Shown here in pieces: positions 5,166-28,509 of a DNA stretch of 29,034 nucleotides. A program made the translations under genes and the position numbers. The DNA comes from a virus: IMG/VR virus record IMGVR_UViG_3300033145_000937, positions 1 through 29,034 of that record; one strand, given 5' to 3'. Positions within the stretch are counted from its first letter, which is position 1, and each line of letters starts with the position of its first letter. The notes below the pieces were generated by a model, which saw only the letters and a list, made by a program, of their open reading frames with translations, had not been told where the DNA came from and ran no database searches.

Positions 5166-5447
5166 CTAGTCAGCCTGTCTTTTACCGCCTAATATCTTCC
5201 TATCACCAAAATTAAGCACCTCCAATATAGAACCAAGGGTCGTTAGTAACCCATTAAGCTTCGGGTGGGCAATTATCATAATACCTACAAATATTTCATT
5301 TTTACACTTGGGACAATTATCTTTAATAATTTTAGTACAGTCTTTTTCGAATGGAGCTATACTAATCAATATCTCCTGTTTACAATGGCCACATACTATT
5401 CTTGGTTTTAATTCTTCTTTATGGATTGTTATTAATTCTCTTGCCAT
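5166..5447 (-). CDS. Zinc-ribbon protein of unknown function
   Basis: The 93-residue protein carries two CxxC knuckles, CGHC at about residues 19-22 and CPKC at about 45-48, spaced as in a single four-cysteine zinc ribbon. The following segment (IFVGIMIIAHPKLNGLLTTLGSILEVL) is hydrophobic but interrupted by HPK, so a membrane segment is possible and not secure. The start codon overlaps the stop of the upstream HNH gene (TAATG), and its ribosome site GAAAGGAG is the last part of that HNH reading frame. The HNH copy therefore drives translation of this gene. Confidence 0.65.
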   Translation of the reverse strand: MARELITIHKEELKPRIVCGHCKQEILISIAPFEKDCTKIIKDNCPKCKNEIFVGIMIIAHPKLNGLLTTLGSILEVLNFGDRKILGGKRQAD

Positions 5448-6118
5448 TATATTCTCCTTTCAATTCTAATTATTTGTTGTGTTGATTTATTGATATACGA
5501 TACATGATCTTGTCTATTAATAATAACAAAATCTTTGGGGTTTACCGATATTGATTTATTATTTTGAAGTTGCCAATGTAATATGGCATGGCAAGGGTTA
5601 CATAAAGTCATAGTATCTTCTGGAGCACATCGTTTCTTATCTAAATAAATATGGTGGTTACCCAAACATTTATAATTATTCTTACAATTTTTATTTTCAC
5701 AGTAGTCTTTACGGATGTCTTTTTTGTATTCCCTATCTCTCCAGATTTCACAATACTTATCATTGGGATGGGATTTGGTATTTCCTATTGATATCTTTAA
5801 TTTTGTTTCTTCAGTATGTTTATAATTAAGCGCATTGATATTACCCATCATTCCTAATGATATTTTCTTTTTAGTTTCTTCAGATGGCTTTTTACCAATT
5901 TTTACAATAGACATTATTGCTTTTGATTCTTCTGAACATTTCTTACCACGCCTATTTGTATTGCCTTTACTTGCCACAGCCATCTTCTTCTTCGTTGCAT
6001 CAGATTGTTTTTTGCCAAGCATTGGTTTATTATGCCCACTAATATACCTCTTGCCATAGTTAGTTATCCTACCACAATCACCACAACCGCATATTCTACG
6101 TATTAGTTTCCTTTTCAT
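5447..6118 (-). CDS. NUMOD3/HNH homing-type endonuclease, copy A
   Basis: This is a 223-residue free-standing homing-type nuclease. Order: a basic N-terminus with a cysteine cluster (RRICGCGDCG) and a GHN motif; four NUMOD3-like DNA-binding repeats of the form S-E-E-T-K-x-K-I (KKQSDATKKKM, KKCSEESKAIM, KKPSEETKKKI, YKHTEETKLKI); then the nuclease part with DYCENKNCK, GNHHIYLDKKRCAPED, CNPCH and LH; and a C-terminal tail ending SYINKSTQQIIRIERRI. It lies between SbcC-C, which it overlaps by 4 bases, and a zinc-ribbon gene. Five close paralogues are in this window (7874, 9418, 16562, 20562, 27099). It is presumably mobile by homing into phages that lack it. Confidence 0.9.
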   Translation of the reverse strand: MKRKLIRRICGCGDCGRITNYGKRYISGHNKPMLGKKQSDATKKKMAVASKGNTNRRGKKCSEESKAIMSIVKIGKKPSEETKKKISLGMMGNINALNYKHTEETKLKISIGNTKSHPNDKYCEIWRDREYKKDIRKDYCENKNCKNNYKCLGNHHIYLDKKRCAPEDTMTLCNPCHAILHWQLQNNKSISVNPKDFVIINRQDHVSYINKSTQQIIRIERRI

Positions 6119-7873: not shown

Positions 7874-8443
7874 TTATCTCTCTTTCTTATTAATTCTTAT
7901 TATTTTCCTTGTTAATTTATTAATATATGACACGTGGTCTAGTCTATTTATTATAATAAAATCTTTTGGATCGGCTGATTTTCTTTTACCATCTTGCAAT
8001 GCATTATGTAAAACCACATGGCAACTACAACACAAAGTCATTACTTCATTTGGCGCACACCTCTTTTTATCCAAGAATACATGATGGTTATCTAATTGCT
8101 TATAATGACCTTTACAATTTTTATTTTCACAGTAGTCTTTTCTTATATCTTTTTTGTACTCTCCATCACGCCATATATCACAATACTCATCATTAGGATT
8201 ACATTTTAAATTTGCTAAAGATCGTTTTAATATTGATTCTTTAGATTTTGTTTTGCCTTTACTTGCTAAAGACATATTTCTTTTAGCTTCTACAGACTTG
8301 GGTTTACGCATCTTTCTTTTAGTTTCTTCTGAACGTTTTTTATTTTCCCAAGTATGCCCAAGAATATATTTTTTGCCTGGGCTTGTAATGCCACCACAAC
8401 CACCCCTACACCTTCTACGTATTTTTCTTTTCTTATTTTTCAT
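7874..8443 (-). CDS. NUMOD3/HNH homing-type endonuclease, copy B
   Basis: At 189 residues this is one of the shorter paralogues. The N-terminus has RRRCRGGCGG and a GHT motif. There are three NUMOD3-like repeats (KKRSEETKRKM, KPKSVEAKRNM and a weaker KTKSKESILKR). The HNH region has DYCENKNCKGHYKQL, DNHHVFLDKKRCAPNE, CCSCHVVLH, and the tail ends SYINKLTRKIIRINKKER. It is inserted between SbcC-N and SbcD, starting 11 bases inside the end of SbcC-N. Its last codons (AAGAAAGAGAGATAA) provide the purine-rich site in front of SbcD. Confidence 0.9.
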   Translation of the reverse strand: MKNKKRKIRRRCRGGCGGITSPGKKYILGHTWENKKRSEETKRKMRKPKSVEAKRNMSLASKGKTKSKESILKRSLANLKCNPNDEYCDIWRDGEYKKDIRKDYCENKNCKGHYKQLDNHHVFLDKKRCAPNEVMTLCCSCHVVLHNALQDGKRKSADPKDFIIINRLDHVSYINKLTRKIIRINKKER

Positions 8444-9417: not shown

Positions 9418-10110
9418 TTATATCTTTTTCTCTATTCTAAATATTATTTTTCTTGATTTTTTATTAATATACGACACATAGTCTAGTCTATTTATTACTA
9501 TAAAATCTTTGGGATTTACTTTTTGTCTTTTACCATCTTCAAGCGCACGATGTAACCATACATGGCAACTTCTACATAAAGTTATTACATCATCTGGAGC
9601 ACATCTTTTTTTATCTAACCAAATATGGTGATTAACAAGTAATTTAGATATCTTTTTGCAATTAGCATTTTCGCAATAATCTTTTCTTATATCTTTTACA
9701 TATTCTTTATCTCTCCAAGTATCACAATATTCATCTTTAGGATGGGGTTTGATACTTGTTATAACCTTATTTTTTATATGCTCTTCAGATTTTGGCTTAC
9801 GCATCTTTCTTTTTGTTTCTTCAGACCTTGGCCCACACCCATAAGTATTGCCCATCATCTTTTTTATATGTTCCTCCGAAAGCTTTCTACCAGTCAATCC
9901 TAAAGATATATTCTTTTTATGTTCCTCAGATTTTGGCTTACCAATTGCTGCTAAAAACATATTTTTTCTTGCTTCCTCAGATGGTGGACCACGTTTTTTA
10001 CCTTTCCAATAATGCCCATGGACATATTTATTACCTGGCTCGGTAATTAGCTTACATTTTTCATCTGCACAACCACATCTTCTACGAATTTTCCTTATCT
10101 GCTTTAACAC
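9418..10110 (-). CDS. NUMOD3/HNH homing-type endonuclease, copy C (GTG start)
   Basis: At 230 residues this is the longest paralogue. It starts with GTG at 10110, and the ribosome site GAGGAG is in the end of the 58-residue gene upstream. Its first six residues, MLKQIR, are identical to the start of the following SbcC N-half, unlike the other copies. There are five NUMOD3-like repeats (GPPSEEARKNM, KPKSEEHKKNI, RKLSEEHIKKM, GPRSEETKRKM, KPKSEEHIKNK), then DYCENANCKKISKLL, VNHHIWLDKKRCAPDD, CRSCHVWLH, and the tail SYINKKSRKIIFRIEKKI. It has evidently captured the translation start of the SbcC gene. Confidence 0.9.
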   Translation of the reverse strand: MLKQIRKIRRRCGCADEKCKLITEPGNKYVHGHYWKGKKRGPPSEEARKNMFLAAIGKPKSEEHKKNISLGLTGRKLSEEHIKKMMGNTYGCGPRSEETKRKMRKPKSEEHIKNKVITSIKPHPKDEYCDTWRDKEYVKDIRKDYCENANCKKISKLLVNHHIWLDKKRCAPDDVITLCRSCHVWLHRALEDGKRQKVNPKDFIVINRLDYVSYINKKSRKIIFRIEKKI

Positions 10111-11600: not shown

Positions 11601-12707
11601 TTAATATCTTTTCTTACGACGTTTAACATCTAAAGAAAATGCATCTTCTATTTTATTCCATTTTCCTTCTATTAATTTTTTGACTTCTTCTATTTCATTA
11701 TTTTTTTCTATATACCTTATAAACCTCTCTCTTGTCTTAAAAAATTTTCCTTTAAATCGGATTGCTTTCTTGCCCCATAAATAATCCACCATACTACCCA
11801 AATCATCAAGACCATAATCGTATAAAATATTAAAATCCGCTTCTCTAAACGGCTTTGCTACCTTACTTCTCTCAACCTTGACATGGCCTTTTATTCCAAA
11901 TACCTTTTTTTCTCCTAACTTGGTTTTTGTTAATTTTTCCTTTTCACGAATCCATGCTACTTGATGCGTGTAAAAATCTAATGCTTTGCCTCCAGCTCTA
12001 TAAGTCTTTTTACCAAAAGTAATTCCAATTTTAGTTCTTACTTGCGAAACTATAAATAAAGTAGAATCTTTATCATTCCTCTCTAATAGTGAACATACGT
12101 AAGCAAAAAAACTAGAAGTATACTTTTGCTTTTCAAGATTAAAGCTCCCTTCTATATCCTTATCGTCCTGTACACTTTTTGCAAATCGTGTATTGTCTGC
12201 CGTAGATTTTAACGCATCCCAACTATCAATAATATAAAGAAGGAACTCTCCTTTCCTTAATTCATTTAGTCTTTTAATATAATCACGACCCATTGCTTCT
12301 ATACTTTTATTTTTCTTCCAAATTACAGATTTTACAAAATCTTTTCCATACATTGCTTCAAGAGGAAAATCTATTATACCCTCAGAACTGGCATAAACAA
12401 TACTAACCTTTTTAACCCTTGGAAATATTCTTGATTTTACTTTCTTTACACGCTTGTAACACCAGAAAGCAAGCTCAAGAGCAAGAAGTGTTTTGCCACT
12501 GCTTCCATCGCCTACAATATTATCCACCCTTGCTCTTGACCAACCTCCATCCTTGCCCTTACCGCTAAGAGCAAGGTTTAACGTAGTACTTCCAGAAGAA
12601 AGAAAATCCACTGGAGGGGTCCCTCTTGCTTCAATACCAACAGACGACATTGCATCGTCAACCTTACTAGACGTTGAATTCTTGCTCCTACGTTTTATTT
12701 TTCTCAT
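11601..12707 (-). CDS. RecA/UvsX-family recombinase
   Basis: This is a 368-residue strand-exchange ATPase. Walker A is GDGSSGKT at residues 66-73, the Walker B strand is LLYIIDSWD (about 156-164), and the segment STLFIVSQVRTKIG followed by KKTYRAGGKALDFYTHQVAWI is the L1/L2 and core-end region of phage RecA/UvsX proteins. The linker VDFLSSGSTTLNLALSG is the usual start of the ATPase core. The N-terminus (MRKIKRRSKN) is unusually basic and resembles the start of the neighbouring HNH proteins. It works with the gp32-like SSB and the UvsY-like mediator encoded upstream in the same unit. Confidence 0.92.
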   Translation of the reverse strand: MRKIKRRSKNSTSSKVDDAMSSVGIEARGTPPVDFLSSGSTTLNLALSGKGKDGGWSRARVDNIVGDGSSGKTLLALELAFWCYKRVKKVKSRIFPRVKKVSIVYASSEGIIDFPLEAMYGKDFVKSVIWKKNKSIEAMGRDYIKRLNELRKGEFLLYIIDSWDALKSTADNTRFAKSVQDDKDIEGSFNLEKQKYTSSFFAYVCSLLERNDKDSTLFIVSQVRTKIGITFGKKTYRAGGKALDFYTHQVAWIREKEKLTKTKLGEKKVFGIKGHVKVERSKVAKPFREADFNILYDYGLDDLGSMVDYLWGKKAIRFKGKFFKTRERFIRYIEKNNEIEEVKKLIEGKWNKIEDAFSLDVKRRKKRY

Positions 12708-12735: not shown

Positions 12736-14088
12736 TTAAAAAGGAATATCGTCAAACTTCTTCCCAAGTTCATCGGTGATCTTATCTTTAACATCATCTT
12801 CATCGTCTTTCCTTTTAATCTTTACCTTTAAATCATTTTCTTCGATGAAGTCTTTAAGCTCGTCCATATCATCAAGGTCTTCGAGCTCGTCAAGCAGGTC
12901 TTGCAATTGATTATCACCACCGCCCTTACCTCCAAGCTTCTTTACCAATGCCGCTTCTATCTTGGCCTTAACTTCGTCCTCATCATTTTTGACGTCTTTC
13001 CTTTTGACTTTTATATCCAAATCATTTTCTTCGACAAAATCTTTTAAGTCGTCTACACCTTCAAGGTCTTCAAGCTCGTCAAGTAAGTCCTGCAGATCAC
13101 TGTCATCACTACCCTTATCACTCCCAAGCTTGTCTTCAAGTTCTTCGATGATTTTTGCTTTAACATCATCTTCATCGTCTTTCCTTTTAATCTTTACCTT
13201 TAAATCATTTTCTTCGACAAAATCTTTTAACTCATCTATTTCATCGAGGTCTTCCAGTTCGTCAAGCAGGTCTTGCAATTCGTTATCATCACTGCCTTTA
13301 CCATGCCCTTTGCTCTTACTCGACTTGTCCGGACTATCTCCACCTTCATTAGCATCTGCAATTTCTTTATATGTAGGCCTATGCACATTTTCATCTAAAA
13401 CAATTACAGCATCGAGCAATTCTTCATCGATTTCATAATCCCTTTCGTCAAAACTATGGCCGATATATGATGGATAGTCCTCTTTGCTTTTTGCTGGTTC
13501 AATAGTGAAGGTAATCGACCGACCATTTATCGGGTCTGCGAAATTTATTAACTTGTCTTCGCCACCATGTCTAGATGGCTTCCTGGCAATGGCCAACACT
13601 TGCTTTTCAAAATAATGATATGAAATATCCCAAATTTGGATTCCCTTTTTCTCCTCACCTTTATCGTAACAAATAACATTATAAAGATTCCGTCTTTTGG
13701 GAAATAGTTTCTTCCATATTTCCTTGTCTACGCCCTTATCACGCAGTCGCTGTCTCTCTTCACATATAGGACAGGGCTTATTTTCCATTTCAGTTGGACA
13801 CAAATACATTACGTCATTTGGGCCAACTCTTGTATGCACCCACCCTTCAAAGGTATATGTTGGATCACCCTTCTTTACAAGTGGGTCGTACTTGCCAGCA
13901 TCGTAAGGAATAATATCAACAATATGTGCACCATCTTTAGGTCGCCAAAGAGGAACCGCAATTCCATCAGTAAGAATATTATTGAACTTTCCCTTACTCC
14001 TTTCTTGACCAAGCTTTACACGCTCCTGCAATTTCTTACTTTGTTTTTCTCTTTTCTTTCTGTTACTAGATAATGATTTTTTACCCAT
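12736..14088 (-). CDS. gp32-like single-stranded DNA-binding protein with C-terminal repeats
   Basis: This is a 450-residue protein. A basic N-terminal segment (residues 1-35) is followed by an OB-fold region with a putative zinc site, H85-C97-C106-C109 (VHTRVG, YLCP, PCPIC), whose spacing is close to the His-Cys3 site of T4 gp32. The region VPLWRPKDGAHIVDIIPYD is typical of phage SSBs. From residue 268 the protein has three tandem acidic repeats of about 60 residues, each with a QDLLDELEDL helix, a KDF(V/I)EENDL helix and a basic KIKRKD turn. These resemble SAP/HeH-type folds and replace the simple acidic tail of gp32. AAGGAGGAGG precedes the ATG, and the start overlaps the 58-residue membrane-protein gene. 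Confidence 0.88.
   Translation of the reverse strand: MGKKSLSSNRKKREKQSKKLQERVKLGQERSKGKFNNILTDGIAVPLWRPKDGAHIVDIIPYDAGKYDPLVKKGDPTYTFEGWVHTRVGPNDVMYLCPTEMENKPCPICEERQRLRDKGVDKEIWKKLFPKRRNLYNVICYDKGEEKKGIQIWDISYHYFEKQVLAIARKPSRHGGEDKLINFADPINGRSITFTIEPAKSKEDYPSYIGHSFDERDYEIDEELLDAVIVLDENVHRPTYKEIADANEGGDSPDKSSKSKGHGKGSDDNELQDLLDELEDLDEIDELKDFVEENDLKVKIKRKDDEDDVKAKIIEELEDKLGSDKGSDDSDLQDLLDELEDLEGVDDLKDFVEENDLDIKVKRKDVKNDEDEVKAKIEAALVKKLGGKGGGDNQLQDLLDELEDLDDMDELKDFIEENDLKVKIKRKDDEDDVKDKITDELGKKFDDIPF
12739..13287 (-). repeat. Three tandem ~180-bp coding repeats (SAP/HeH-like) in the SSB gene
   Basis: The repeats start at codons for residues 268, 329 and 392 of the SSB (about 13287, 13104 and 12915) and are about 61, 63 and 59 codons long. 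The conserved core is L-Q-D-L-L-D-E-L-E-D-L, then (D/E)LKDF(V/I)EENDL, a basic turn and a final K-A-K-I helix. DNA identity between copies is high enough to see by eye, which implies recent duplication and a site for unequal recombination or misassembly. A related unit occurs at the start of the gene at 28620-29034. Confidence 0.85.
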
Positions 14089-14805: not shown

Positions 14806-15357
14806 TTATTCAGTAGCTACTAGCCTTCTCTCAGATGTAATGGTACTTACACACTTGATACTTTCTTGAATTGTTTTATCATTTAATTGTAATAACCCAC
14901 AATCAATTCCAAAATCAGTAAATGCACTCATCCAAGAATTATCTCTATCTTTATTTTTACTCTCGTATAATAATTCAAAATATACTTTTTTAATTCCAGA
15001 ACCTGCAATTTGCTTCAAGCAAACAAAACAGGGCTGTAAGGTACAATACATAATGCTATCTTTTATACTGATACCGTATTTAGCAGCGTAGTTGATTGCA
15101 TTAGCTTCCGCATGAATCGAAAGGCAAGTATTATACTTATCAATATCTAATGCTTTTTTTGATCTTCTAAAACAAAATTCACTTCCTTTGTCGCTACATT
15201 GAAACGTTCCAACAACTGTTCCTGTAAAACCAGTAGCAAGTATTCTATTATCTTTAACTATAATAGAACCGCTCGATCGCGAATTACATGTCGATCTTAA
15301 AGATATCAATTTTGCTATAACCATAAAATATTGATCCCAACTTATTCTATTCTGCAT
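14806..15357 (-). CDS. Deoxycytidylate (dCMP) deaminase
   Basis: The 183-residue enzyme converts dCMP to dUMP, the substrate of the thymidylate synthase encoded just upstream. The zinc-site motifs are HAE (H82, E84) and PCFVC (C110, C113). The segment RSTCNSRSSGSIIVKDNRIL near residue 21 is the usual first motif of dCMP rather than cytidine deaminases. The start overlaps the thymidylate synthase by 11 bases, with AAAGG ahead of it, so the two steps are co-translated. The central insert with extra cysteines and histidine (FQCSDKGSEFCFRRS) is the variable region where a second zinc binds in T4 dCMP deaminase. Confidence 0.9.
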   Translation of the reverse strand: MQNRISWDQYFMVIAKLISLRSTCNSRSSGSIIVKDNRILATGFTGTVVGTFQCSDKGSEFCFRRSKKALDIDKYNTCLSIHAEANAINYAAKYGISIKDSIMYCTLQPCFVCLKQIAGSGIKKVYFELLYESKNKDRDNSWMSAFTDFGIDCGLLQLNDKTIQESIKCVSTITSERRLVATE

Positions 15358-16120
15358 GCTTACCTTTCTTTAAAAGATTTTCTAATGGTTCAATCTGAAA
15401 ATCATAACAATGAAGACCCATACAAGAAAAGGCCATTGGCCCAGGCTCCACACCTATTTCTTCCGCTACATATTCGTTAAGTAAAGTAAAACCACCCATA
15501 TTCTGAGGCCACCCTCCATAAAGATCCCACGATCTATAGACAACGAGAGTTAATAATTTACCGTCTTTAACCTTAAAATCTAATCCTCTTAAGCAAGGCG
15601 ACGTGCCCCTTTCAGTTTCATTTGTATAGGGCTTGTCATATACAAAATTAGAATCTCTATCTCCTATATTAATATAACAATGATTATTTCCAAGACCCTT
15701 TTGTTTAAAGTGTCTAATCATCCATTCTAATTGAGTATCTCCTCCAGTAAACGACTCAGGTGGAACAGAAGGTTTTTTTGAATAGTAAGGGTTATAAAAT
15801 CTTCCATTAATCCACGTAGCATACTTATACTCTTCTAACTTACCCAAGACTGGATCCATTAAATAATTTGCAAAATATTCTCCTATTTTTTCATCCGTTG
15901 TTGTTGGATTTGATGAAATCCCTTCTGGCATTATAGGAGACAATGGCCTTTGATGAGGAAACATAGAAATACCAGAAACAAAATCAAATTCTAATCTATG
16001 CGCCCCTGCAAAAGAACCATTTGTAATCAAATACTTCCTACCATGATTATATATTTCCCATAAAAGATGAAACCAAGTATCACCAAGAGTTGTAGATTTA
16101 ACAAATACAGGATCGATCAT
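15347..16120 (-). CDS. Thymidylate synthase, archaeal (methanogen) type
   Basis: This is a 257-residue ThyA-superfamily enzyme that methylates dUMP. The nucleophile is C176 in TSPCLRG, followed by the phosphate-binding RSWD (R196-S197), PQN (N207), and LHCYD (H237, Y239). The residue equivalent to E. coli Asn177 is Asn, which favours dUMP rather than dCMP and argues against a cytidylate hydroxymethylase. The sequence RSWDLYGGWPQNMGGFTLLN and the one-residue differences from classical PCH....F are those of the shorter methanogen/archaeal branch, known also from some bacteria and phages. The N-terminus (DPVFVKSTTLGDTWFHLLWE) also fits that branch. Overlaps of 4 and 11 bases tie it to its neighbours. 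Confidence 0.82.
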   Translation of the reverse strand: MIDPVFVKSTTLGDTWFHLLWEIYNHGRKYLITNGSFAGAHRLEFDFVSGISMFPHQRPLSPIMPEGISSNPTTTDEKIGEYFANYLMDPVLGKLEEYKYATWINGRFYNPYYSKKPSVPPESFTGGDTQLEWMIRHFKQKGLGNNHCYINIGDRDSNFVYDKPYTNETERGTSPCLRGLDFKVKDGKLLTLVVYRSWDLYGGWPQNMGGFTLLNEYVAEEIGVEPGPMAFSCMGLHCYDFQIEPLENLLKKGKHAE

Positions 16121-16561: not shown

Positions 16562-17200
16562 TTATTTTTTTAGGCAAAACTTTTCAATTCTAATTATTTT
16601 TCTCGTAATTTTATTAATATACGATACGTGATCTATCCTATTAATTATTATAAAATCTTTTGGATTGACTTTTTGTGTTTTACCATTTTGCAATGCACGA
16701 TGTAACCACATATGACAACTATTACATAAAGTCATTACTTCATTTGGCGCACATCTCTTTTTATCTAAGTAGATATGATGGTTAACAAGTCTTTTAGATA
16801 TTTTCTTGCAATCTTTATTTTCACAGTAGTCTTTACGAATGTCATCTTTGTATTCTTTATCATACCATTCACAACCATATTCATAATTGGGATTAAATTT
16901 AATTTTTCCTAAAGCCATTTTTAATTTAGTTTTTTTAGATATATTTTGCTTCACCAAAGACATTTTCTTCTTCGTTTCTTTTGTATGCTTAAATCCAAGC
17001 GCATTTGTATTACCCATTTGACCCAAAGACATATTCTTTCTTACTTTTTCAACATGTATTTTTCCTATATTACCTTTTCCATAAATATTACCAATATTTC
17101 TACTTGCAGTATTATGTCCATTAATATATTTATTACCAGGATTGGTTATTAGCCCACAACCACATTTACATCCTCTTCTTATTTTCCTTTTCTTTTTCAT
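16562..17200 (-). CDS. NUMOD3/HNH homing-type endonuclease, copy D
   Basis: This is a 212-residue paralogue directly after the polymerase gene (9-base gap). The N-terminus is MKKKRKIRRGCKCGCG with INGHN. The NUMOD3-like repeats are degenerate (KIHVEKVRKNM, FKHTKETKKKM, SKKTKLKM). The nuclease region is intact: DYCENKDCKKISKRL, VNHHIYLDKKRCAPNE, CNSCHMWLH. The tail SYINKITRKIIRIEKFCLKK has an unusual last part after the common IIRIE, so the 3' end of this copy has diverged or been replaced. It is followed by a promoter and the tRNA-like element rather than by a coupled gene. Confidence 0.9.
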   Translation of the reverse strand: MKKKRKIRRGCKCGCGLITNPGNKYINGHNTASRNIGNIYGKGNIGKIHVEKVRKNMSLGQMGNTNALGFKHTKETKKKMSLVKQNISKKTKLKMALGKIKFNPNYEYGCEWYDKEYKDDIRKDYCENKDCKKISKRLVNHHIYLDKKRCAPNEVMTLCNSCHMWLHRALQNGKTQKVNPKDFIIINRIDHVSYINKITRKIIRIEKFCLKK

Positions 17201-17209
17201 AATTTTTTA

Positions 17210-20200
17210 TTAATAATTTTTAAATAATAATACCTTAAGTAATTTTAAAAATACATTTATTCCTTGCTTAAAAACAGGCTTATTATCTGAAGAATGTAAT
17301 GATGCAGATGGACTAATACAATAACATATCCAAGCAGAATATTCTTCATTCCAAACTGTCTTCCCGCTCATGGCTATAATCCCAGCCTTTTGACCAGTAA
17401 AGAAATTTAAACTCGTATTGCCAAATGCTAAAATTATCTTCGGTTTAACCATTTTTATTTCATATTTTATAAACTTGCTACATAACTGAATCTCTTCAAT
17501 TGTAGACTTACCACTTACACTTGGATAGCATTTATTAATAAATGTTACATGAAAATCTTCCCTCTTATACCCACCTTGCTTAATAGGCTTCCATAATATA
17601 TCTCCAGATCGACCTACAAACCCCGTCCCTTTTTTATCTTCATCATACCCAGGTACCCCACCTATAATAAACATATTGAATTTGCCTGTGCTTGGTGAAA
17701 CTGGAGCAGTACATTCTTCTCGTAATTTACAAGCAGTACAAGACATAAGATCATCATGCCCTGAAAATTCAACTCTTTTTATAATCCTTTTAGATTTGCA
17801 AACTCTTCTAAGTTCTTTGCTATCACCTGATATTAAACCATCTATACGATCTAAACGAATACTTCCAACAAGACGATAAAGATTTTTATAAGTAGCTTTT
17901 GGATCTATAATAATACGAAAGTCAAAATACGATTTAACCTTCTCGCTCATTTGAACATTATCATTTAGATCATAAGCACCTATATCTTCAAGTATAGTTC
18001 TTAACGCTTTCTCCTTATGCTTGGCTGAATTTTTAGTATTGAAAAGTCCTTTAAGCTTATTATCTACGGGCGAAGCAGCCTGATATGCCTTTACTTCGCC
18101 CAATTTTTTAACTTCTTTAAATGGTACGTATAATTTATTCCCTCTGGAAACCCAATTAACAGGATCACTTATACCAACCTTTGGCAAAACCAGCACCAGC
18201 CCCAATCTATAAGCTTCTTCAACCAATAATGTTTTTTTATCTTTTGCTCCGTATGTTAATGATGCACAAATAAATTCTGTTGGATAGTATCTCTTTAGCC
18301 ATGCACATTGGTAGCCAACCAGCGCATACGCAACGGAATGAGCCTTATTAAATGAATATTTAGCATGCTCTTCTAGCCCATCCCAAAACTCTTCTGCTTC
18401 CCTTTTAGAAAAGGTTTTCTGTCTTAGACATCCACGAATAAATTTTTTCTTGTATGGCATAAATTCTTTTACACTTCTCTTTTTCCCAATAATCTTCCTA
18501 ATCTTATCAGCCGTAGAATAAGGAAGACCAGCCATCTTATGGATTACTTCCATTACCTGCTCTTGATAAACAATAACTCCATAAGTATCCTTAGTAATTT
18601 TCTCATATATTTTATGATGCTTGTCCCACTTTCCGCCTCTTTGTCTTCGTATGTATTCAGCAGTCATTCCAGAGTTGTAGATTCCTGGCCTTACAAGAGC
18701 AACAACATCACTTAAAGTTTTAAAATTCTTTATTGATAGCTCTGATATAAGAGCAGTCAAGGCATAAGTATTAAGCTGAAATACACCAACCGTATTCCCT
18801 TCGTTTATATCTCTTATAACATCTTTATCTTCAATATCAATTTTATCTAAATCAATATTTTTATGATTTTCTTTAGCTAACCTTACAGTTTCACCAAAAA
18901 CACTTAGAAGCTTTAATGCCAATGCATCGAGCTTCATCAATCCCACAAATTCAGCATTGTTCTTTTCCCAATTTACAAGAATCATTTCATTTCTTTCCAT
19001 AAGGTTACAGCGAGTACTATCTTCAAGAGGCTTCTTTGATATTACTAAGGCAGCTGCATGAGTACTATAAGTTTTAATCTGCCCCTCTAATGTCTTTGCT
19101 ATTTTTATTATCTCTGGATAGTTATCATCAAATTCTTTTCCTTCTGGATATTCATCTATCGCTTCTTGTATTCCGGTATGATCGTCATTATCCTCAATCA
19201 ATTTAGCAAACCTATCTACTTCGCCTAAAGGTATATCAAACACTCTACTAACATCTCTAACAACGGCCTTTGCTTTCATTCTATTAAAGCTACTTATATT
19301 TGCTATATGATTTTCTCCATACATTATTTGCAAATGCTTTTTTACAATATGTCTTTTTGTATGTTCAAAATCTACATCAATATCAGGATAGTCAATTCTA
19401 TCCTTATTAATAAATCTACTAAAAAGTAAACCATGTCGTATAGGGTCTAATTTGGCACCAGTGATTCCAAGAAGAAATGAAATTAATGACCCTCCGGCAG
19501 ACCCCCTGCCTTCACCAACAAAAATGCCATTCTTTTTACACCAACTAACCAATTCCCAAACTATTAAAAAATAACGAACAAATTTTTTATTAATAATTAA
19601 ATCGTATTCTTCTTTTAGCCTTTCATAATAAGCTTTATCTAGTTTAATACTCTTGCCAAATTTATTTCTAAATCCTTTAATACAAAGCTTCCATAAAAAA
19701 TTCTTTTCATTTAAAGGAACTCCTTTTACACGAGGTAATAATACTTCCTGTTTAACTATTCTAAAATCACTGCATTTCTCTGCTATCTCTATTGTATTCG
19801 TAAGATACTCTTTTTTATAAAAATCTATACTATTAAGTGCCCTCATCATTTCATTAGCAGTACATAAGTGAAGATTTTTAATTGAAAATTTCCATCGTTT
19901 AGGGTCTGTCCATCGTGCCTTTGTTTGAATTGCCAAAAGCACTTCTTGAGCTTTCCACTCACTGCGATTGATATAATGGCAGTCATTTGTAGCTATAATC
20001 TTACACCCAGTTTTACGAGAAAGTCGTAATGCAAGTTTATTTACCTTCCGTTGAGCTTCTAGTTTATGAGGCATTACTTCAAGATATAAGTCATCACCAA
20101 TCTTATCAAACAAGTCATGGAACAACGCAATCCCACTATCAAACTTGGTTAAAAAGGAACTCGCGCATGCTGTAGATATAACAAGACCCTTGCAGTGATC

Positions 20201-20569
20201 TAAAAGCATTTTATAACTAATTCTCGGTCTATAATAAAACCCTTCTATATTAGCGTAGGTAAGCAATCTACATAAATTTTTAAATCCGGTTTGATTCTTT
20301 ACCAAGAGTACTACGTGGCCACGTACCCTGTCTTTCTTTTCTATATCAGGAGCAATATATGCTTCGCATCCTAGAATTGGAGCAACACCATATTCATCGC
20401 ATGCCTTCTGAAACTCAATAAGGCCAGTCATTACGCCATGATCGGTACAGGCTAAATATTTAAATCCTAATTTTGAAGCTCTTTCGGCGTACTTTTTAAC
20501 CGTACCAACACCATCTAATACACTATATTCAGTATGCAGGTGTAAATGACAAAAGTTTGCATTATCCAT
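17210..20569 (-). CDS. dnaE: DnaE-type (C-family) DNA polymerase fused to a family-4 UDG-like domain
   Basis: This is the 1119-residue replicative polymerase. Residues 1-210 are a PHP domain with metal ligands still present (CHLHLH at 7-12, TDHG at 42-45). The palm/nucleotide site includes GEGRGSAGGSLISF (352-365) and catalytic D396 and D398 in YPDIDVDFE. The tandem helix-hairpin-helix region follows (about 800). The usual OB and tau-binding domains are not recognisable. Instead, residues about 940-1110 match family-4 uracil-DNA glycosylase: cysteines 944, 947, 1014 and 1030 with 4Fe-4S spacing, the GxPGxxED-like IGGVPGYDEDKKG, and FVGRSGDIL. The usual HPS motif reads SPSAS, so the glycosylase activity is doubtful. 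It is flanked by HNH copies D and E. Confidence 0.92.
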   Translation of the reverse strand: MDNANFCHLHLHTEYSVLDGVGTVKKYAERASKLGFKYLACTDHGVMTGLIEFQKACDEYGVAPILGCEAYIAPDIEKKDRVRGHVVLLVKNQTGFKNLCRLLTYANIEGFYYRPRISYKMLLDHCKGLVISTACASSFLTKFDSGIALFHDLFDKIGDDLYLEVMPHKLEAQRKVNKLALRLSRKTGCKIIATNDCHYINRSEWKAQEVLLAIQTKARWTDPKRWKFSIKNLHLCTANEMMRALNSIDFYKKEYLTNTIEIAEKCSDFRIVKQEVLLPRVKGVPLNEKNFLWKLCIKGFRNKFGKSIKLDKAYYERLKEEYDLIINKKFVRYFLIVWELVSWCKKNGIFVGEGRGSAGGSLISFLLGITGAKLDPIRHGLLFSRFINKDRIDYPDIDVDFEHTKRHIVKKHLQIMYGENHIANISSFNRMKAKAVVRDVSRVFDIPLGEVDRFAKLIEDNDDHTGIQEAIDEYPEGKEFDDNYPEIIKIAKTLEGQIKTYSTHAAALVISKKPLEDSTRCNLMERNEMILVNWEKNNAEFVGLMKLDALALKLLSVFGETVRLAKENHKNIDLDKIDIEDKDVIRDINEGNTVGVFQLNTYALTALISELSIKNFKTLSDVVALVRPGIYNSGMTAEYIRRQRGGKWDKHHKIYEKITKDTYGVIVYQEQVMEVIHKMAGLPYSTADKIRKIIGKKRSVKEFMPYKKKFIRGCLRQKTFSKREAEEFWDGLEEHAKYSFNKAHSVAYALVGYQCAWLKRYYPTEFICASLTYGAKDKKTLLVEEAYRLGLVLVLPKVGISDPVNWVSRGNKLYVPFKEVKKLGEVKAYQAASPVDNKLKGLFNTKNSAKHKEKALRTILEDIGAYDLNDNVQMSEKVKSYFDFRIIIDPKATYKNLYRLVGSIRLDRIDGLISGDSKELRRVCKSKRIIKRVEFSGHDDLMSCTACKLREECTAPVSPSTGKFNMFIIGGVPGYDEDKKGTGFVGRSGDILWKPIKQGGYKREDFHVTFINKCYPSVSGKSTIEEIQLCSKFIKYEIKMVKPKIILAFGNTSLNFFTGQKAGIIAMSGKTVWNEEYSAWICYCISPSASLHSSDNKPVFKQGINVFLKLLKVLLFKNY

Positions 20570-21125
20570 TTTTATTATTTACCTTATTAATTCTTATTAT
20601 TTGTTTATTTGATTTGCGTATGTATGACACGTGATCTGGGCGATTGATTATAATAAAGTCTTTGAGATTTGCTTTTTGATGCCATGCAAGCATTTGATGT
20701 AACCATGCATGGCAAGGATTACACAATGTTATTACATCATCTGGTGCACATCTCTTTTTATCTAAATAGATATGATGGTTAACAAGATATTTGTAATTAT
20801 CTTTACAATCCTTGTTTTCACAGTAATTTTTTCTTAAGTCTTTTATATATTCTGGATCTTGCCATTCACAACCGTATTGGTAATTTGGATTGGGTTTGAT
20901 TTGTGCTAAAGCTCGTTTTAATATATGCTCTTCGGATTGTTTTTTACCTTTATTAGCTTTCCCATTGGTATTGCCCATCATTCTTATAGAGCATTTCTTT
21001 TTCCATTCTTTAGTATGTGTATTTCTATTATGCCCTGGCAAATACTTCTTGCCATAATTGGTTATTAAACCACAACCATCTCCACACCTTCTACGTATTA
21101 ATCTTTTCCCGTTTTTAAATTTCAT
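20562..21125 (-). CDS. NUMOD3/HNH homing-type endonuclease, copy E
   Basis: At 187 residues this is the shortest intact copy. N-terminus MKFKNGKRLIRRRCGDGCG with PGHN; only two NUMOD3-like repeats (NTHTKEWKKKC, KKQSEEHILKR). The nuclease has DPEYIKDLRKNYCENKDCK, VNHHIYLDKKRCAPDD, CNPCHAWLH, and the tail is SYIRKSNKQIIRINKVNNKNG. It lies between the radical-SAM/SPASM gene and the polymerase and overlaps the polymerase start by 8 bases, so polymerase translation is coupled to that of this mobile gene. Confidence 0.9.
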   Translation of the reverse strand: MKFKNGKRLIRRRCGDGCGLITNYGKKYLPGHNRNTHTKEWKKKCSIRMMGNTNGKANKGKKQSEEHILKRALAQIKPNPNYQYGCEWQDPEYIKDLRKNYCENKDCKDNYKYLVNHHIYLDKKRCAPDDVITLCNPCHAWLHQMLAWHQKANLKDFIIINRPDHVSYIRKSNKQIIRINKVNNKNG

Positions 21126-21129
21126 GACG

Positions 21130-22113
21130 TTATCTCTTGTTTAATATATCCTTAATTCCTATTCTTTTCCCTTCAGGTTTTTCCCACGGCCTTTTGACTA
21201 TTCTTGACATTGTCTTGTCAAGTGTATTTTCCTCTTGTATATGTTCTATTTCTTTTTTTATAGGTATTGGCAATGTTGCTTTCCCCATCTTGTCTGGTAG
21301 CAATCCAACTCTGTAAGATATTGCATCGCACCATTTGCATGGTATGAAATTTCTGTTTCTATGGTATAATAATTTTCTTGCAATATTAAACTCCTTACCA
21401 TTCCAAATATCGTCTAGACAGCCTCCTTCTTTTACTTCTCCGCAATAGTAATGTCCTCTCCAATCGTTACAGCATATAGCAATTTTGCCATCCCATCTAA
21501 TACTCAATTCTCTAAATGGCTTTGCGCATCTTTTTTCTATTGGTGAAAGTAATGGAGGAAAGGCACACCCACAATGATTATTTAAAGTGCTATGCCCACC
21601 ACTTCCAGCGTCTTGTATGTCTTTTATGTATATAACTTTTTTGGTAGTAATTGGAAATTTTTTATGTGGGCTTGCGCATCCGGGATATTCTTCGCCTTTT
21701 ACTTTTAATTTGATCTTCTTTGAGAACGGATTATTTTTATAATCATCTATACCAATAATATTTATCCCATTTAAAAATAACTTATGGATTTTTTCTTTTG
21801 GTAAACGTGCAAGTCCAGTTCCATTTGTCAATATTGTTAATTGATTTTGTGGAAGATGAAATCTAAATATTTTTATAATTTCTAGATACTTTGGATTTAA
21901 AGTAGGCTCTCCATGCATGGCAAACTCAATACGTGATCCCCATTTTGTCGCCTTGATTTGTCTTGCAATGTTTTTACTACATTCTAACGACATGAATTTA
22001 TGTCCAGTTGGTTTTTTTCTTATGCCACGTATACCACAAAATTTACAAAATAAATTACAACCTTCTGTAAGTTCAACTTGTATTGAAAACGGTGGTTCTT
22101 GTTTTTCTTTCAT
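21130..22113 (-). CDS. Radical SAM enzyme with SPASM-type C-terminal cluster motif
   Basis: This is a 327-residue protein. The radical-SAM cluster motif is CNLFCKFC (CxxxCxxC, about residues 19-26) in ELTEGCNLFC, with the GE-type motif FAMHGEPTLNP (about 64-74). In the C-terminal half, RWDGKIAICCNDW, then GGCLDDIWNGKEF and FIPCKWC form the pattern of a SPASM or twitch auxiliary cluster. Such enzymes modify peptides, sugars or other substrates by radical chemistry. It overlaps the sulfotransferase-like gene by 4 bases and is last of a four-gene cassette (21130-25184). An inserted segment (about 135-190) with extra cysteines (NNHCGCAFPP) is unusual. Substrate unknown. Confidence 0.88.
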   Translation of the reverse strand: MKEKQEPPFSIQVELTEGCNLFCKFCGIRGIRKKPTGHKFMSLECSKNIARQIKATKWGSRIEFAMHGEPTLNPKYLEIIKIFRFHLPQNQLTILTNGTGLARLPKEKIHKLFLNGINIIGIDDYKNNPFSKKIKLKVKGEEYPGCASPHKKFPITTKKVIYIKDIQDAGSGGHSTLNNHCGCAFPPLLSPIEKRCAKPFRELSIRWDGKIAICCNDWRGHYYCGEVKEGGCLDDIWNGKEFNIARKLLYHRNRNFIPCKWCDAISYRVGLLPDKMGKATLPIPIKKEIEHIQEENTLDKTMSRIVKRPWEKPEGKRIGIKDILNKR

Positions 22114-23753: not shown

Positions 23754-25184
23754 TCATTTTGTAAGATCGATCCCTTCATTTATCCAACGATCTTCATAAT
23801 CCGATTTTACATATATGTATACAAGATTTTCATTTTCATCGATTCTAATAGGTTTTACTTTACCATGAAAATAATTTGCAGGATTGCCGGGAGACCTGAG
23901 GTTATTCCAAGTAGCTCTAGCAAAATCAGCATATGACAAGCCTTGCCGTTCACACGCTGTCTTGCCGGATACACCAACATGGTCACTACCAAATTCAGTA
24001 GCCTTTAAATACGTATCCTTTTTGAAATTAAACACCTTATCAAATTTAAACTGCAAAACCCTACCATCACTATGATACTGTCTTCTTGCTTCTTTCAAAA
24101 AATAAGTTAGCTGACTTTTTGACCAATTTTGCATTTCTTTATTCTGTTCATAATCATCTGGCAACCCACAGCAAGACCCACTCATATTAAGTTCTTTGTA
24201 ATCCGGATCGCTACAAGCGAATAGAATATCATTTTTAAGACAAAACTTATATATCTTCTTAACAAATCGCTCCTTCACCAGTCTATTAAGCCTCATATAC
24301 CCACCACGTTCACTAGGGCTAAGAGCCTTAAAATATTTTAACAAATCTTTACAACCAATCAATTCGCCTATCCACTTATATCGTTTCATAAGATGATCGT
24401 TATGTCTTAAATCAATAGCAACAAATTCCATACTGACAGCCTGTATTCCTGCTTCCTTTGCCTTATATAACAAGTCATCTAGCCCATCATCTGAAATGCC
24501 TATAATAAAGGGTCTAAGGCGCAATATTGTATAATACCCCATATCGGATAATTGCTTTATTGCTTGTAATCGCTTACTTGTAACTGGTACACCAATTTCT
24601 ATCTTCCTGCTCATCTCATCACTTGGAGCTATAATAGAAACTTGAAAGGCAAAATTCTTTTGGTGAGCATATTTACCAAAAAGCTTGCGAAAATTAGGTC
24701 TAAAAATAGCCGATCCTTTAAAACTGAAAAGAGTTGGATATTTTTCCATTGCAAGTGCTCTAATAATTTTATATCCGATATTATTTGCTTTTTCAAAATT
24801 ACAGAATGGGTCTGCAAGGCCACCCCAATGGAAGACGAATCTTTTCTTTAAAAAATGCTCATAGAAAGCTTTATTACGTGACCCTGTTGGCTTGCCATGA
24901 ATAGTAGATATAAGGTTTTTGTAATTCACTGAATGTAACTTATTAGAAAAGCTTGGGTTAGAAGTCTTTTGCATTACTGCGAAGCAGTAGCTACAGCCCA
25001 TCGAGCAAAACGAGTAATGGTCAAACGTCATTGGCAAACTGCAATCCATAAACTCACTACTTATTCTTGGGCTTCCATATCTAAACGCTTTGGTACTTCG
25101 CGTATCAATCTTTAACCCTTTATTTTGCCTTACAAAAAGATTAGCCTCTCTTGTAATTGACTCCTGTGTATCACTCATTTTCAT
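23754..25184 (-). CDS. Radical SAM enzyme, SplB/photolyase-like
   Basis: This is a 476-residue protein. The cluster motif is CSMGCSYCF (CxxxCxxC, about 60-67), preceded by SLPMTFDHYSF. FHWGGLADPFC (about 118-128) is where SplB-like proteins have their G-T-x-T-D-P-Y motif. The first 290 residues look like a TIM-barrel radical-SAM domain. The last about 150 (GSCCGLPDDYEQNKEMQNW onward, with KTACERQGLSYADFARATWN) are a separate region unknown to me, which may bind substrate or an additional cluster. It is first of the cassette, coupled to a 134-residue gene by 4 bases. Known relatives act on DNA thymine dimers or unknown substrates; here a base-modifying role is inferred from the TAGT neighbour. 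Confidence 0.85.
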   Translation of the reverse strand: MKMSDTQESITREANLFVRQNKGLKIDTRSTKAFRYGSPRISSEFMDCSLPMTFDHYSFCSMGCSYCFAVMQKTSNPSFSNKLHSVNYKNLISTIHGKPTGSRNKAFYEHFLKKRFVFHWGGLADPFCNFEKANNIGYKIIRALAMEKYPTLFSFKGSAIFRPNFRKLFGKYAHQKNFAFQVSIIAPSDEMSRKIEIGVPVTSKRLQAIKQLSDMGYYTILRLRPFIIGISDDGLDDLLYKAKEAGIQAVSMEFVAIDLRHNDHLMKRYKWIGELIGCKDLLKYFKALSPSERGGYMRLNRLVKERFVKKIYKFCLKNDILFACSDPDYKELNMSGSCCGLPDDYEQNKEMQNWSKSQLTYFLKEARRQYHSDGRVLQFKFDKVFNFKKDTYLKATEFGSDHVGVSGKTACERQGLSYADFARATWNNLRSPGNPANYFHGKVKPIRIDENENLVYIYVKSDYEDRWINEGIDLTK

Positions 25185-25789: not shown

Positions 25790-26167
25790 TTATTCACCTT
25801 TCTTTAACCCAAAATACTGTTCCGGCTTCTTACCAAGTTTCCTAATAATATTTATAATTTGTTTTGCTTGATAAGTGTTGCAACAAAGGGTTTGGCATAT
25901 TTTTTGATTTAATTTTAAATTTTCTTCTTTTACCTTTTTTATATACTGTAAATAGTTATTCAACCCTTGCTTCTTCACACAAAGATTGAAAAGAGAGTCT
26001 GTTGCCCATCTTGGAAGTCTTCCAATATATTTATTAATTTTTATAGAAGCAAGTATTGCCATAGGTTGATAAGATAAAATCTTGTTTACCATAAACCCAT
26101 GCTTTACACTTACATTGTCTTCTTTAAATAATCTCATAACAATATCAAAAGGATTTTCTTTACCCAT
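25790..26167 (-). CDS. Clamp-loader small subunit (T4 gp62-like)
   Basis: This is a 125-residue protein. ENPFDIVMRLFKED at the N-terminus and GFMVNKILSYQPMA (about 25-38) match the NPF and F(M/L)(V/I)NR.LSY.P motifs of phage clamp-loader subunit A proteins. The segment IGRLPRWATDSLFNL and the C-terminal AKQIINIIRKLGKKPEQYFG followed by LKKGE also fit; they vary in T4 gp62 itself. It lies directly after the AAA+ large subunit (2-base gap), the same order as gp44 and gp62 in T4. The subunit has no nucleotide site and completes the 4:1 loader. The assignment combines motif and position. Confidence 0.78.
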   Translation of the reverse strand: MGKENPFDIVMRLFKEDNVSVKHGFMVNKILSYQPMAILASIKINKYIGRLPRWATDSLFNLCVKKQGLNNYLQYIKKVKEENLKLNQKICQTLCCNTYQAKQIINIIRKLGKKPEQYFGLKKGE

Positions 26168-26169
26168 AA

Positions 26170-27096
26170 TTATTTCCTGCTTTTAAAATCTATGTTTACT
26201 TCTAACAAGCTCATCAGTTCGATACAACACGCTGTACAGTTTATTTCCTTGTCTGCAATGCCCTTATCCTTATATAGATAGTCGGCTACAACTACTGCTG
26301 CTTCAGGCTTTACTTCATCAGGCATGTGCTTTATTATAAATCCATTAAACAAATATTTGTATACCCAAATAAAGTCTACCCTGTTCTTCCACAATTCTCG
26401 TAATTTTGTAATTTTCCCACGCTTCAAAAAATCCATTACTTGATTTGTATCCAAAGACATATCGGCCATTTGTAACTTACCACCGACGCTACCAAGTTGC
26501 AAATTATTTATAATCGTCCTAACATCAGGGTAATAAAGATTTACAATTTTCTCAACAATCCTATTTCTATATTCTATCCTTTCTGCTTTTAATATCTTTT
26601 CCGCGAGATCAACAACGTCTTGTTTTTTAAAAGTGTTAAATTCAAATAGAATACATCTTGAAACAATCGCTTCATTAATTTTATCAAACTGGTTAGCAGT
26701 AAAAATAAACCTGCAATTGGCTTGATAAGAATCCATTGTCCCCTTGAGCGCAAGTTGGGCATCTACAGTAAGACCATCCGCTTCATCAAGCAAAACTATA
26801 TTTAATTTCTTTTTACTACTTCGCTGAGTAGAAGCGAATTGTTTTATTTTTTGCTTTACAGTAGCAACACCTCTATCACCAGAACTCGCATTAAGTGTAA
26901 GTTTCCTATCTGCTAATTCCTTTAAAAGAATAAGAGATAGCGTAGTCTTCCCACTACCAGGAGGTCCGTACAGAATGATATTTGGGATTTGTTTTTCTTC
27001 TATAAATTCCTCGAATGCCCTTCTTGTTTTTGGAGGTAAAATTAATTGCTTTAATTTGGATGGCCTAAATTTTTCTGCCCAAATCATAGATTTCAT
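26170..27096 (-). CDS. Sliding-clamp loader AAA+ subunit (gp44/RFC-small-like)
   Basis: This is a 308-residue AAA+ ATPase. MIWAEKFRPSKLKQLILPP is the classical RFC-box II start (W.EK.RP). Walker A is LYGPPGSGKT (about 43-52), Walker B is IVLLDEADGL (about 99-108), sensor 1 is FIFTANQFDKI, and the arginine-finger motif is AIVSRCILFEF (SRC). This is the archaeal/eukaryotic/T4 type and not bacterial DnaX, although the polymerase encoded nearby is bacterial DnaE-like. HNH copy F lies between this gene and the clamp gene. The start has an AAGGA site. Confidence 0.92.
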   Translation of the reverse strand: MKSMIWAEKFRPSKLKQLILPPKTRRAFEEFIEEKQIPNIILYGPPGSGKTTLSLILLKELADRKLTLNASSGDRGVATVKQKIKQFASTQRSSKKKLNIVLLDEADGLTVDAQLALKGTMDSYQANCRFIFTANQFDKINEAIVSRCILFEFNTFKKQDVVDLAEKILKAERIEYRNRIVEKIVNLYYPDVRTIINNLQLGSVGGKLQMADMSLDTNQVMDFLKRGKITKLRELWKNRVDFIWVYKYLFNGFIIKHMPDEVKPEAAVVVADYLYKDKGIADKEINCTACCIELMSLLEVNIDFKSRK

Positions 27097-27098
27097 AA

Positions 27099-27707
27099 TT
27101 AAATTTCCTTATTTATTCTTATTATTTTTCTTGTTGATTTATTAATATACGATACATGATCTATCCTGTTAATTATTATAAAATCTTTTGGGTTGATCTT
27201 TTTATATTGTTCTTCTTCGAGCAAGCGATGTAATATAGGATGACAACTATTACATAAAGTCATTACTTCATCTGGCGCACATCTTTTTTTATCTAAGAAG
27301 ATATGGTGGTTACATAGTCTTTTAGAAATACCCTTGCAATTTTTATTTTCACAATAATTTTTACACAAATCTTTTCTGTATTCTGGGTCTTGCCATTCGC
27401 AACCGTATTGATAATCAGGATTGTATTTGATATGCCCCAAAGATATATTTAATTTTGTTTCTTCAGACATGTTTTGCTTTGCTAAAGACATATTCTTTCT
27501 TGCTTCTTCAGACTTTGGACCACGCATTTTTTCTTTTGATTCTTCGGTATGTATTTTTCCTTTATTACCTTTTCCTATTTTCTTTTTCATTTCTTTAGAT
27601 AATTTTATATTTCTTCTATGATGTCCACGAAGATACTTCTTGCCATAGTTAGTTATACTACCACAACCACACTTGCATCTTCTTCTTATTTTCCTTTTCT
27701 TTTTCAC
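27099..27707 (-). CDS. NUMOD3/HNH homing-type endonuclease, copy F (GTG start)
   Basis: This is a 202-residue paralogue starting with GTG at 27707, since no in-frame ATG precedes the conserved KKKRKIRRRCKCGCG. It has a GHH motif and four NUMOD3-like repeats (IKLSKEMKKKI, KIHTEESKEKM, GPKSEEARKNM, QNMSEETKLNI). The nuclease has NYCENKNCKGISKRL, CNHHIFLDKKRCAPDE, CNSCHPILH, and the tail SYINKSTRKIIRINKEI. It separates the sliding clamp from the clamp loader, genes that are adjacent in T4-like phages. The ribosome site (GAGG) is about 15 bases away, so expression may rely on coupling to the clamp gene. Confidence 0.9.
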   Translation of the reverse strand: MKKKRKIRRRCKCGCGSITNYGKKYLRGHHRRNIKLSKEMKKKIGKGNKGKIHTEESKEKMRGPKSEEARKNMSLAKQNMSEETKLNISLGHIKYNPDYQYGCEWQDPEYRKDLCKNYCENKNCKGISKRLCNHHIFLDKKRCAPDEVMTLCNSCHPILHRLLEEEQYKKINPKDFIIINRIDHVSYINKSTRKIIRINKEI

Positions 27708-27717
27708 AACAGCCCAT

Positions 27718-28509
27718 TTATTCCTCTTCTAAATTAGTAAGCGGAACCAGTGCCCAGGCAGCATTATTATCCTCAACCATAATAAGCTCGTCTTCTGTAA
27801 AGGACAGCGTCGGAGGATCATCCTCATCAAAATCAATAGTAGAAAATATCCTTGCCAAATGCTCACCATTAACCTTAATGGAAAACGAATCGGCATCATC
27901 TCTATCTACCCCCTCTACCTCCGTGCTAAGTTCCAGCTCAAACTTATGATCGTTTGTGCCACCACAAATAAAGGTCAACTTCATATCGTCTTCGTCAAAA
28001 TCCAACGTAACATCTTTTGTTTTCAACAGGTTTATATATGAAAGGAAATCTTTTATAAAAGATGCAGTTAAATCTATCGTCAAGTCCATCATTTTTTTCA
28101 TCTTCTTATACGGATCATCTTGCTTTTCAGAACCTTCAGCCTGAAGCTGAGTTGCAATTAAATCAGGTTGGGTTAACAGGTAATCAAGCTTTCTACGGCC
28201 ACCTACTTTAGTAAGCTTAAAAATAGTAGAGGTGCACTTAAAATATAACTTGCTGTCACCAAGCGTAGATAAGAACTTTATAAGAATGTCAAGATTGCCC
28301 AGACCAAAAGTAATATTAGTATCTTTAGGCATTATAGGTTTTTTACATATAACAATCAGGGAGTTTGTTATATCAACCGCTTCTATCTTGGCCTTTCCGT
28401 TTTTTATTACCAACACGCATTCTTCAAGAATGCCTCCAAGGTTGACTTGTTTTAACATGCTTAAAAAAGCACCGATCTTTATAAATTCTTTCTTTATTGT
28501 TTTCGACAT
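27718..28509 (-). CDS. Sliding clamp (gp45/PCNA-like)
   Basis: This is a 263-residue processivity factor. It shows the two-domain pattern of PCNA-type clamps: an N-terminal half with GGILEECVLVIKNGKAKIEA, VDITNSLIV and FGLGNLDILIKFLSTL, and a second half with VTLDFDEDDMKLTFICGG, then FSIKVNGEHLARIFSTIDF and DDPPTLSFTEDELIMVEDNN, ending AWALVPL. A long charged linker (about 120-145) connects them. Length and ending fit a trimeric gp45/PCNA clamp rather than the three-domain bacterial beta clamp. The ATG has GGAGA 7 bases upstream and lies only about 20 bases after an intrinsic terminator. Confidence 0.85.
   Translation of the reverse strand: MSKTIKKEFIKIGAFLSMLKQVNLGGILEECVLVIKNGKAKIEAVDITNSLIVICKKPIMPKDTNITFGLGNLDILIKFLSTLGDSKLYFKCTSTIFKLTKVGGRRKLDYLLTQPDLIATQLQAEGSEKQDDPYKKMKKMMDLTIDLTASFIKDFLSYINLLKTKDVTLDFDEDDMKLTFICGGTNDHKFELELSTEVEGVDRDDADSFSIKVNGEHLARIFSTIDFDEDDPPTLSFTEDELIMVEDNNAAWALVPLTNLEEE

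Follow-up and report, generated by a model that had tools for sequence, protein, structure and literature searches.

A phage DnaE-type DNA polymerase with a C-terminal uracil-DNA glycosylase fold and a degenerate uracil pocket

The stretch of viral DNA analysed here, hereafter the window, is the 29,034-nucleotide IMG/VR record IMGVR_UViG_3300033145_000937 (positions 1 to 29,034). At 17210..20569 it encodes a C-family (DnaE-type) phage replicative DNA polymerase of 1119 residues with an ATG start, which ends in the fold of a family-4 uracil-DNA glycosylase (UDG). The coordinates of the initial annotation were right, and the gene lies on the minus strand, as does every other feature for which window coordinates are given below. 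With moderate confidence, we favour the view that the UDG module of the window is glycosylase-dead and is kept for structure or DNA handling, the corresponding module of its relatives probably being a working UDG attached to the replicase. To build a UDG into a replicase is paradoxical, because excision of uracil from the single-stranded template ahead would leave an abasic site in the path of the polymerase. The relatives provide matched natural variants, namely pockets with EG or EA doublets, QD pockets, dead-but-folded domains, domains devoid of the iron–sulphur (Fe-S) cluster ligands and polymerases with no such domain, so that a role in repair, sensing or structure becomes directly testable by comparison of orthologues.

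Domain organization of the polymerase

Pfam matches in the polymerase open reading frame (ORF) comprise PHP (residues 8-168), DNA_pol3_alpha (291-551), fingers (556-717) and UDG (PF03167, 966-1103). The PHP domain (20066..20548; PF02811, E-value 8.5e-39) is probably an active proofreading nuclease, given the conservation of the metal-ligand-type residues H10, H12, D19, H44, E69, H85, C135, D196 and H198. The palm, thumb and fingers span residues 291-717 (18419..19699), as judged from Pfam, conservation and the structural match to Taq DnaE, and the catalytic aspartates D396, D398 and D548 characteristic of the C family are invariant among relatives. The AlphaFold model of the full-length protein, built with an alignment of 44 relatives, has a mean pLDDT of 88.9 and matches Taq DnaE with a Z-score of 39.5 over 862 residues. 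This match covers residues 1 to about 916 and then stops. The C-terminal OB fold and tau-binding C-terminal domain (CTD) of typical DnaE1 enzymes, which the initial annotation had been unable to recognize, are indeed absent: Pfam finds no OB domain in the polymerase, and residues 934-1115 of the model form a UDG fold instead. Some known DnaE variants also lack both domains.

Pfam, a search of PDB sequences and superposition of the AlphaFold model, the last suggested by the initial annotation, agree on the identity of this tail (residues 934-1115; 17225..17770) and bear out the proposed fusion of a DnaE-type polymerase to a family-4 UDG fold. The PF03167 match to residues 966-1103 (E-value 1.8e-17) is over the gathering cut-off; that of the NCBIfam family-4 UDG model to residues 944-1096 (E-value 3.2e-24) is below the curated cut-off. 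The tail alone retrieves the Thermotoga and Thermus family-4 UDGs from PDB sequences at E-values of about 1e-20, and its model (pLDDT about 92) superposes on the Thermus UDG structure with a Z-score of 23.0 and a root-mean-square deviation of 1.9 A over 180 residues. Cysteines 944, 947, 1014 and 1030 (17738..17740, 17729..17731, 17528..17530 and 17480..17482), correctly located from the start, align with C13, C16, C84 and C100 of Thermus UDGa and are the predicted Fe-S ligands of a family-4 UDG. Compared with the Thermus thermophilus enzyme (PDB 1ui0), the window domain shares the fold, the four cysteines, E47 and F54, but it is fused to a polymerase, is only 31% identical, and has E41, G42, N80 and H155 replaced. 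It is not a UdgX, since motif A reads GGVPG rather than GEQPG, KRRIH is missing and there is no insertion at that place relative to Thermus UDGa.

Distribution of the fusion and related architectures

A first scan of viral contigs with the window protein alone recovered, from separate assemblies, proteins with the same fusion that are 65% identical; a second, using an alignment and patterns in the polymerase core, added several dozen further fusions, and a third, directed at the tail, yielded 66 ORFs with the fusion, including repeats of contigs already found. The search of other phages proposed in the initial annotation thus found the fusion to be widespread, in contigs and isolates alike. 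It is present at full length in L003, L004, L005 and L007, which come from separate assemblies, in dozens of independent and divergent contigs, in phage isolates whose genomes are complete (Pseudomonas phage hairong and the Rhizobium phages RHph_Y2_11 and B1VFA) and on plasmids of about 100-110 kb from E. coli, Aeromonas and Acinetobacter. These independent contigs, isolates and plasmids rule out that separate polymerase and UDG genes were joined during assembly; nothing positive was found in favour of such a join, although several of the metagenomic contigs are short, and we consider its probability negligible.

The initial annotation had regarded the C-terminal fusion of a UDG-like domain to a C-family enzyme as an architecture of its own. 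It is not new, because a DnaE variant in which the OB domain and CTD are replaced by an archaeal-type UDG has been reported as an extra polymerase of certain Salmonella enterica and Yersinia pestis strains (Timinskas et al., 2013; PMC3919608). The window protein belongs to this type: after the PHP-Pol3-(HhH)2 core comes a PF03167 domain where OB and CTD would otherwise lie. The two groups differ in that the pocket is gone from the plasmid homologues of E. coli, Aeromonas and Acinetobacter, as are some or all Fe-S cysteines, whereas both are mostly present in the clade of the window, which also has a T4-type clamp loader, to which the window adds a PCNA-type clamp. In the literature covered, no paper treats the fusion as a phage replicase family, and an earlier mention in phages may exist. 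What is new is the extent of the fusion in phages (95 non-identical fused domains), its PCNA/T4-type clamp setting and the coexistence of intact, QD and dead pockets. SPO1-type phage polymerases (PDB 9qhs; Caudoviricetes sp. MW202455, L010) likewise join a UDG-fold domain to a replicative polymerase, but their domain is N-terminal (residues 32-199 of L010) and their core is A-family by annotation; the window ORF has no A-family match in Pfam, its core being PHP/DNA_pol3.

The fusion also occurs on contigs binned into bacterial metagenome-assembled genomes, L170 (Syntrophaceae) and L171 (Sulfuricurvum), which gives a weak hint as to hosts. Several of the genes are interrupted. An intein (C...HN/C, with Hint and DUF559 matches) splits the UDG domain of L032 and L033 (polymerase ORF at 7907) exactly at the third Fe-S cysteine, and the UDG-less polymerase of L055 (ORF at 7994; 1155 residues) has about 250 extra residues within its core, probably another intein. 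On the Acinetobacter plasmid pDD520 (L092, 2986-7229), dnaE is split by an ORF for a NUMOD4 endonuclease, and its 3' part, which the annotation presents as a separate 'uracil-DNA glycosylase family protein', is really the C-terminal part of the polymerase.

The uracil pocket in the window and in its relatives

Thermus UDGa, after which pocket residues are numbered here, holds uracil by E41, G42, E47, F54, N80 and H155, with N80 making bidentate hydrogen bonds to the base (PMC5387724). Alignment to this enzyme locates degenerate motif 1 of the window at residues 970-974 (17648..17662), where GGVPG has G971 in place of E41 and V972 in place of G42. The uracil-contacting Asn N80 is replaced by F1010 (17540..17542) and, in motif 2, the catalytic H155 by S1086, giving SPS at residues 1086-1088 (17306..17314); both positions were also assessed by conservation in the clade. 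The window therefore has neither the E-G/A or QD doublet of motif 1, nor the Asn, nor the motif 2 His that are expected of a family-4 UDG. The initial annotation had rightly read motif 2 as a non-catalytic SPSAS. A GxPGxxED-like motif 1 is also there, as GGVPGYDED, but the loss of its essential Glu had been overlooked, and likewise that of the specificity Asn.

The cost of such changes has been measured in Thermus UDGa (PMC5387724). The k2 of H155S is more than three orders of magnitude below that of wild type, with Km kept (7.6e-7 vs 9.7e-7 M), E41Q lowers k2/Km about 900-fold with binding undetectable, and N80A causes a loss of over 40-fold, whereas the double mutant E41Q-G42D is restored to an activity no more than about 5-fold below wild type. 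Most likely, the window domain has ceased to excise uracil or to bind it specifically.

Among the 95 non-identical fused domains aligned to Thermus UDGa, 79 keep both the pocket (E/Q41, N80 and H155) and the four cysteines, although this count is inflated by the motif-based patterns of the third scan, so that the fairer figure is the 30 of 41 domains with a kept pocket that were found through whole-protein or polymerase-core searches. The combination G41/V42/F80/S155, with cysteines, E47 and F54 kept, is found in the window only, and the sister L003 (72% core identity, tree support 100) retains the whole pocket with an EA doublet. Six domains (L013, L016, L019, L020, L021 and L109) carry a QD doublet (GQDPG), which is family-1-like and matches the engineered E41Q-G42D pair; as Q41 and D42 always occur together and the engineered pair rescues activity, this pattern fits selection on catalysis. 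Relatives with a complete pocket most likely possess an active UDG, which polymerase and clamp keep at the fork. The lineage of the plasmids, Rhizobium phages and hairong has lost the pocket together with some or all of the Fe-S cysteines, as judged for the Rhizobium phages and hairong from sequence comparison.

Constraint and evolutionary history

Across 55 clade members, the distance between UDG domains tracks the distance between polymerase cores, and the window domain lies on the line (residual 0.2 standard deviations). Of the 43 columns without variation in the rest of the clade it keeps 39, the four lost being N80, H155 and two others. This normal rate and the retention of nearly all invariant columns speak for a specific loss of the pocket in a fold that is still constrained. 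The ratio of non-synonymous to synonymous substitutions (dN/dS) was uninformative, synonymous sites being saturated. By comparison with the sister lineage, the pocket of the window is reconstructed as lost by at least four substitutions after the split. On the polymerase tree, pocket state changes at least four times and domain presence twice, with UDG-less relatives in two separate places. Nesting favours an early gain followed by losses, the tree itself giving no direction. In the plasmid/Rhizobium lineage, a pocket-less domain has been retained across deep divergence.

Clamp-binding-like motif and T4-type replisome

A YFDF motif resembling clamp-binding sequences (residues 881-884; 17918..17929) lies just past the polymerase core. 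The UDG-less relatives L045-L051 end about 60 residues past the core in ...RSYFIF, ...KSLFIF or ...KQYFDF, the motif thus forming the exact C-terminus (e.g. ...KYKQYFDF*). Fused proteins carry it internally (KSYFDF, residues 879-884, in the window), and a linker leads from it to the UDG domain. The strict pattern [YFLM]F.F is found at this site in most members, compared with 1.2% of random segments. The C-termini of T4 gp43 (KASLDFLFG) and RB69 (KKASLFDMF) are similarly rich in Phe, and the gp43 tail binds the gp45 clamp (PMC3012046). We infer that the YF.F motif is a putative clamp-binding site, with the UDG domain just beyond it.

The window encodes the partners that such a site would need. 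A PCNA/gp45-type sliding clamp is present at 27718..28509 (phrog_223, E-value 3.4e-6; AlphaFold pLDDT 73, Z-score 18.0 to archaeal PCNA), together with a T4 gp44-type clamp loader ATPase (26170..27096; phrog_168, E-value 6.9e-74), a gp62-type small clamp-loader subunit (25790..26167; phrog_225, E-value 4.2e-6), a gp32-like single-stranded DNA-binding protein with acidic C-terminal repeats (12736..14088; PF08804, E-value 4.3e-9), a UvsX/RecA-like recombinase (11601..12707; profile matches) and a UvsY-like protein. This set resembles the T4/RB69 replisome, but the polymerase is C-family instead of B-family and its motif is internal with the UDG domain after it. A C-family polymerase therefore stands beside a PCNA/T4-type clamp and loader rather than the usual beta clamp. 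Of 23 records searched with the gp44 profile, which also recognizes cellular clamp loaders, 22 have a match; a search for gp45 homologues with phrog_223 returned no match at all, controls included, and hence carries no information.

Uracil metabolism and base modification

Genes of uracil metabolism were surveyed in 23 records, mostly incomplete contigs. None has a dUTPase (PF00692, 0/23) or an AP endonuclease over the cut-off (PF01261), and no stand-alone UDG was found nearby or elsewhere in these contigs, the fused domain being the only PF03167 match in 19 of the 23. No complete phage base-excision pathway is thus seen, which, the records being mostly fragments, is no evidence of absence in full genomes. 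Profile matches identify in the window a TET-associated glycosyltransferase (TAGT; PF20691, 22889-23779), a dCMP deaminase and a TS-like protein (14806-15357 and 15347-16120), which suggest that the phage DNA may be hypermodified. A tie between pocket loss and these genes is not supported: a sister phage genome (G012/L005) has the glycosyltransferase and an intact pocket, and L027 and L034 combine dCMP deaminase/TS-like genes with intact pockets, so base-modification genes do not explain the loss.

Function of the UDG module

In the explanation that we favour, the C-family core would be the replicase of the phage, working with its own PCNA/gp45-type clamp through the YFDF motif just past the core, and the UDG module would stand in place of the OB and tau-binding domains. 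In most relatives, an intact module would remove uracil around the fork while tethered to polymerase and clamp. In the window lineage, the pocket would have been lost since the sister split whereas the fold was retained, together with the Fe-S cysteines and almost every other constrained position, leaving a structural or DNA-handling part that may hold the template or contact replisome partners at the site of the OB domain. Several points weigh against this explanation. Retained Fe-S ligands, E47 and F54 could equally suit a ligand-binding role; the domain is dispensable in the UDG-less relatives at two places of the tree, which weakens the case for an essential structural role; and pocket retention among the fused domains is best taken at the lower of the two counts given above. 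Clamp binding by YFDF is deduced from sequence, and activity in the relatives and inactivity in the window are both read from residues.

The initial annotation had proposed that the domain senses uracil or a modified base at the fork. Such a domain would bind the template base without excising it and stall or redirect the polymerase, in the manner of the read-ahead function of archaeal B-family polymerases. The nearly unchanged Km of Thermus H155S, the retention of fold, cysteines, E47 and F54, and the glycosyltransferase, TS-like protein and dCMP deaminase of the window, which make unusual bases plausible, are all compatible with it. The residues that would hold uracil are nevertheless replaced (N80F, E41G, H155S), and sensing of uracil is unsupported because E41Q abolished detectable binding and N80A was costly in the Thermus enzyme; the base-modification genes, moreover, coexist with intact pockets in relatives. 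We therefore rate a sensor as unlikely, although ahead of the other alternatives. The domain is possibly a reader or a glycosylase of another base. That many phages possess a competent UDG built into the replicase and excising uracil co-replicatively, and that in the window lineage it now reads a base specific to the phage without cutting, is a combination that we hold to be very doubtful.

Remodelling of the pocket for excision of a different base would account for four altered pocket positions in an otherwise constrained domain with base-modification genes nearby, and other UDG families do differ in motif 1 and motif 2 residues; yet a motif 2 Ser together with Phe at the base-reading Asn matches no pocket-intact fused relative, and we give this possibility the least credence among the functional alternatives. 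If instead function had recently been lost, the domain would be a relic drifting towards the state of relatives that end at YF.F. Its absence in two separate places of the tree and its degeneration in several lineages agree with such a course, but the window domain evolves at the rate of intact domains with its invariant columns and all Fe-S cysteines largely or wholly kept, and the long persistence of a pocket-less domain in the plasmid/Rhizobium lineage also argues against decay. A relic is thus improbable, ranking next after a sensor.

Other genes around the polymerase

The window encodes six HNH-like paralogues, with 45-60% identity among them and a weak NUMOD3 match in one, at 5447-6118, 7874-8443, 9418-10110, 16562-17200, 20562-21125 and 27099-27707. 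These are probably homing endonucleases among the replication genes, and two of them directly flank the polymerase gene. Two radical-SAM proteins (21130-22113 and 23754-25184) are encoded between the polymerase and clamp-loader genes.

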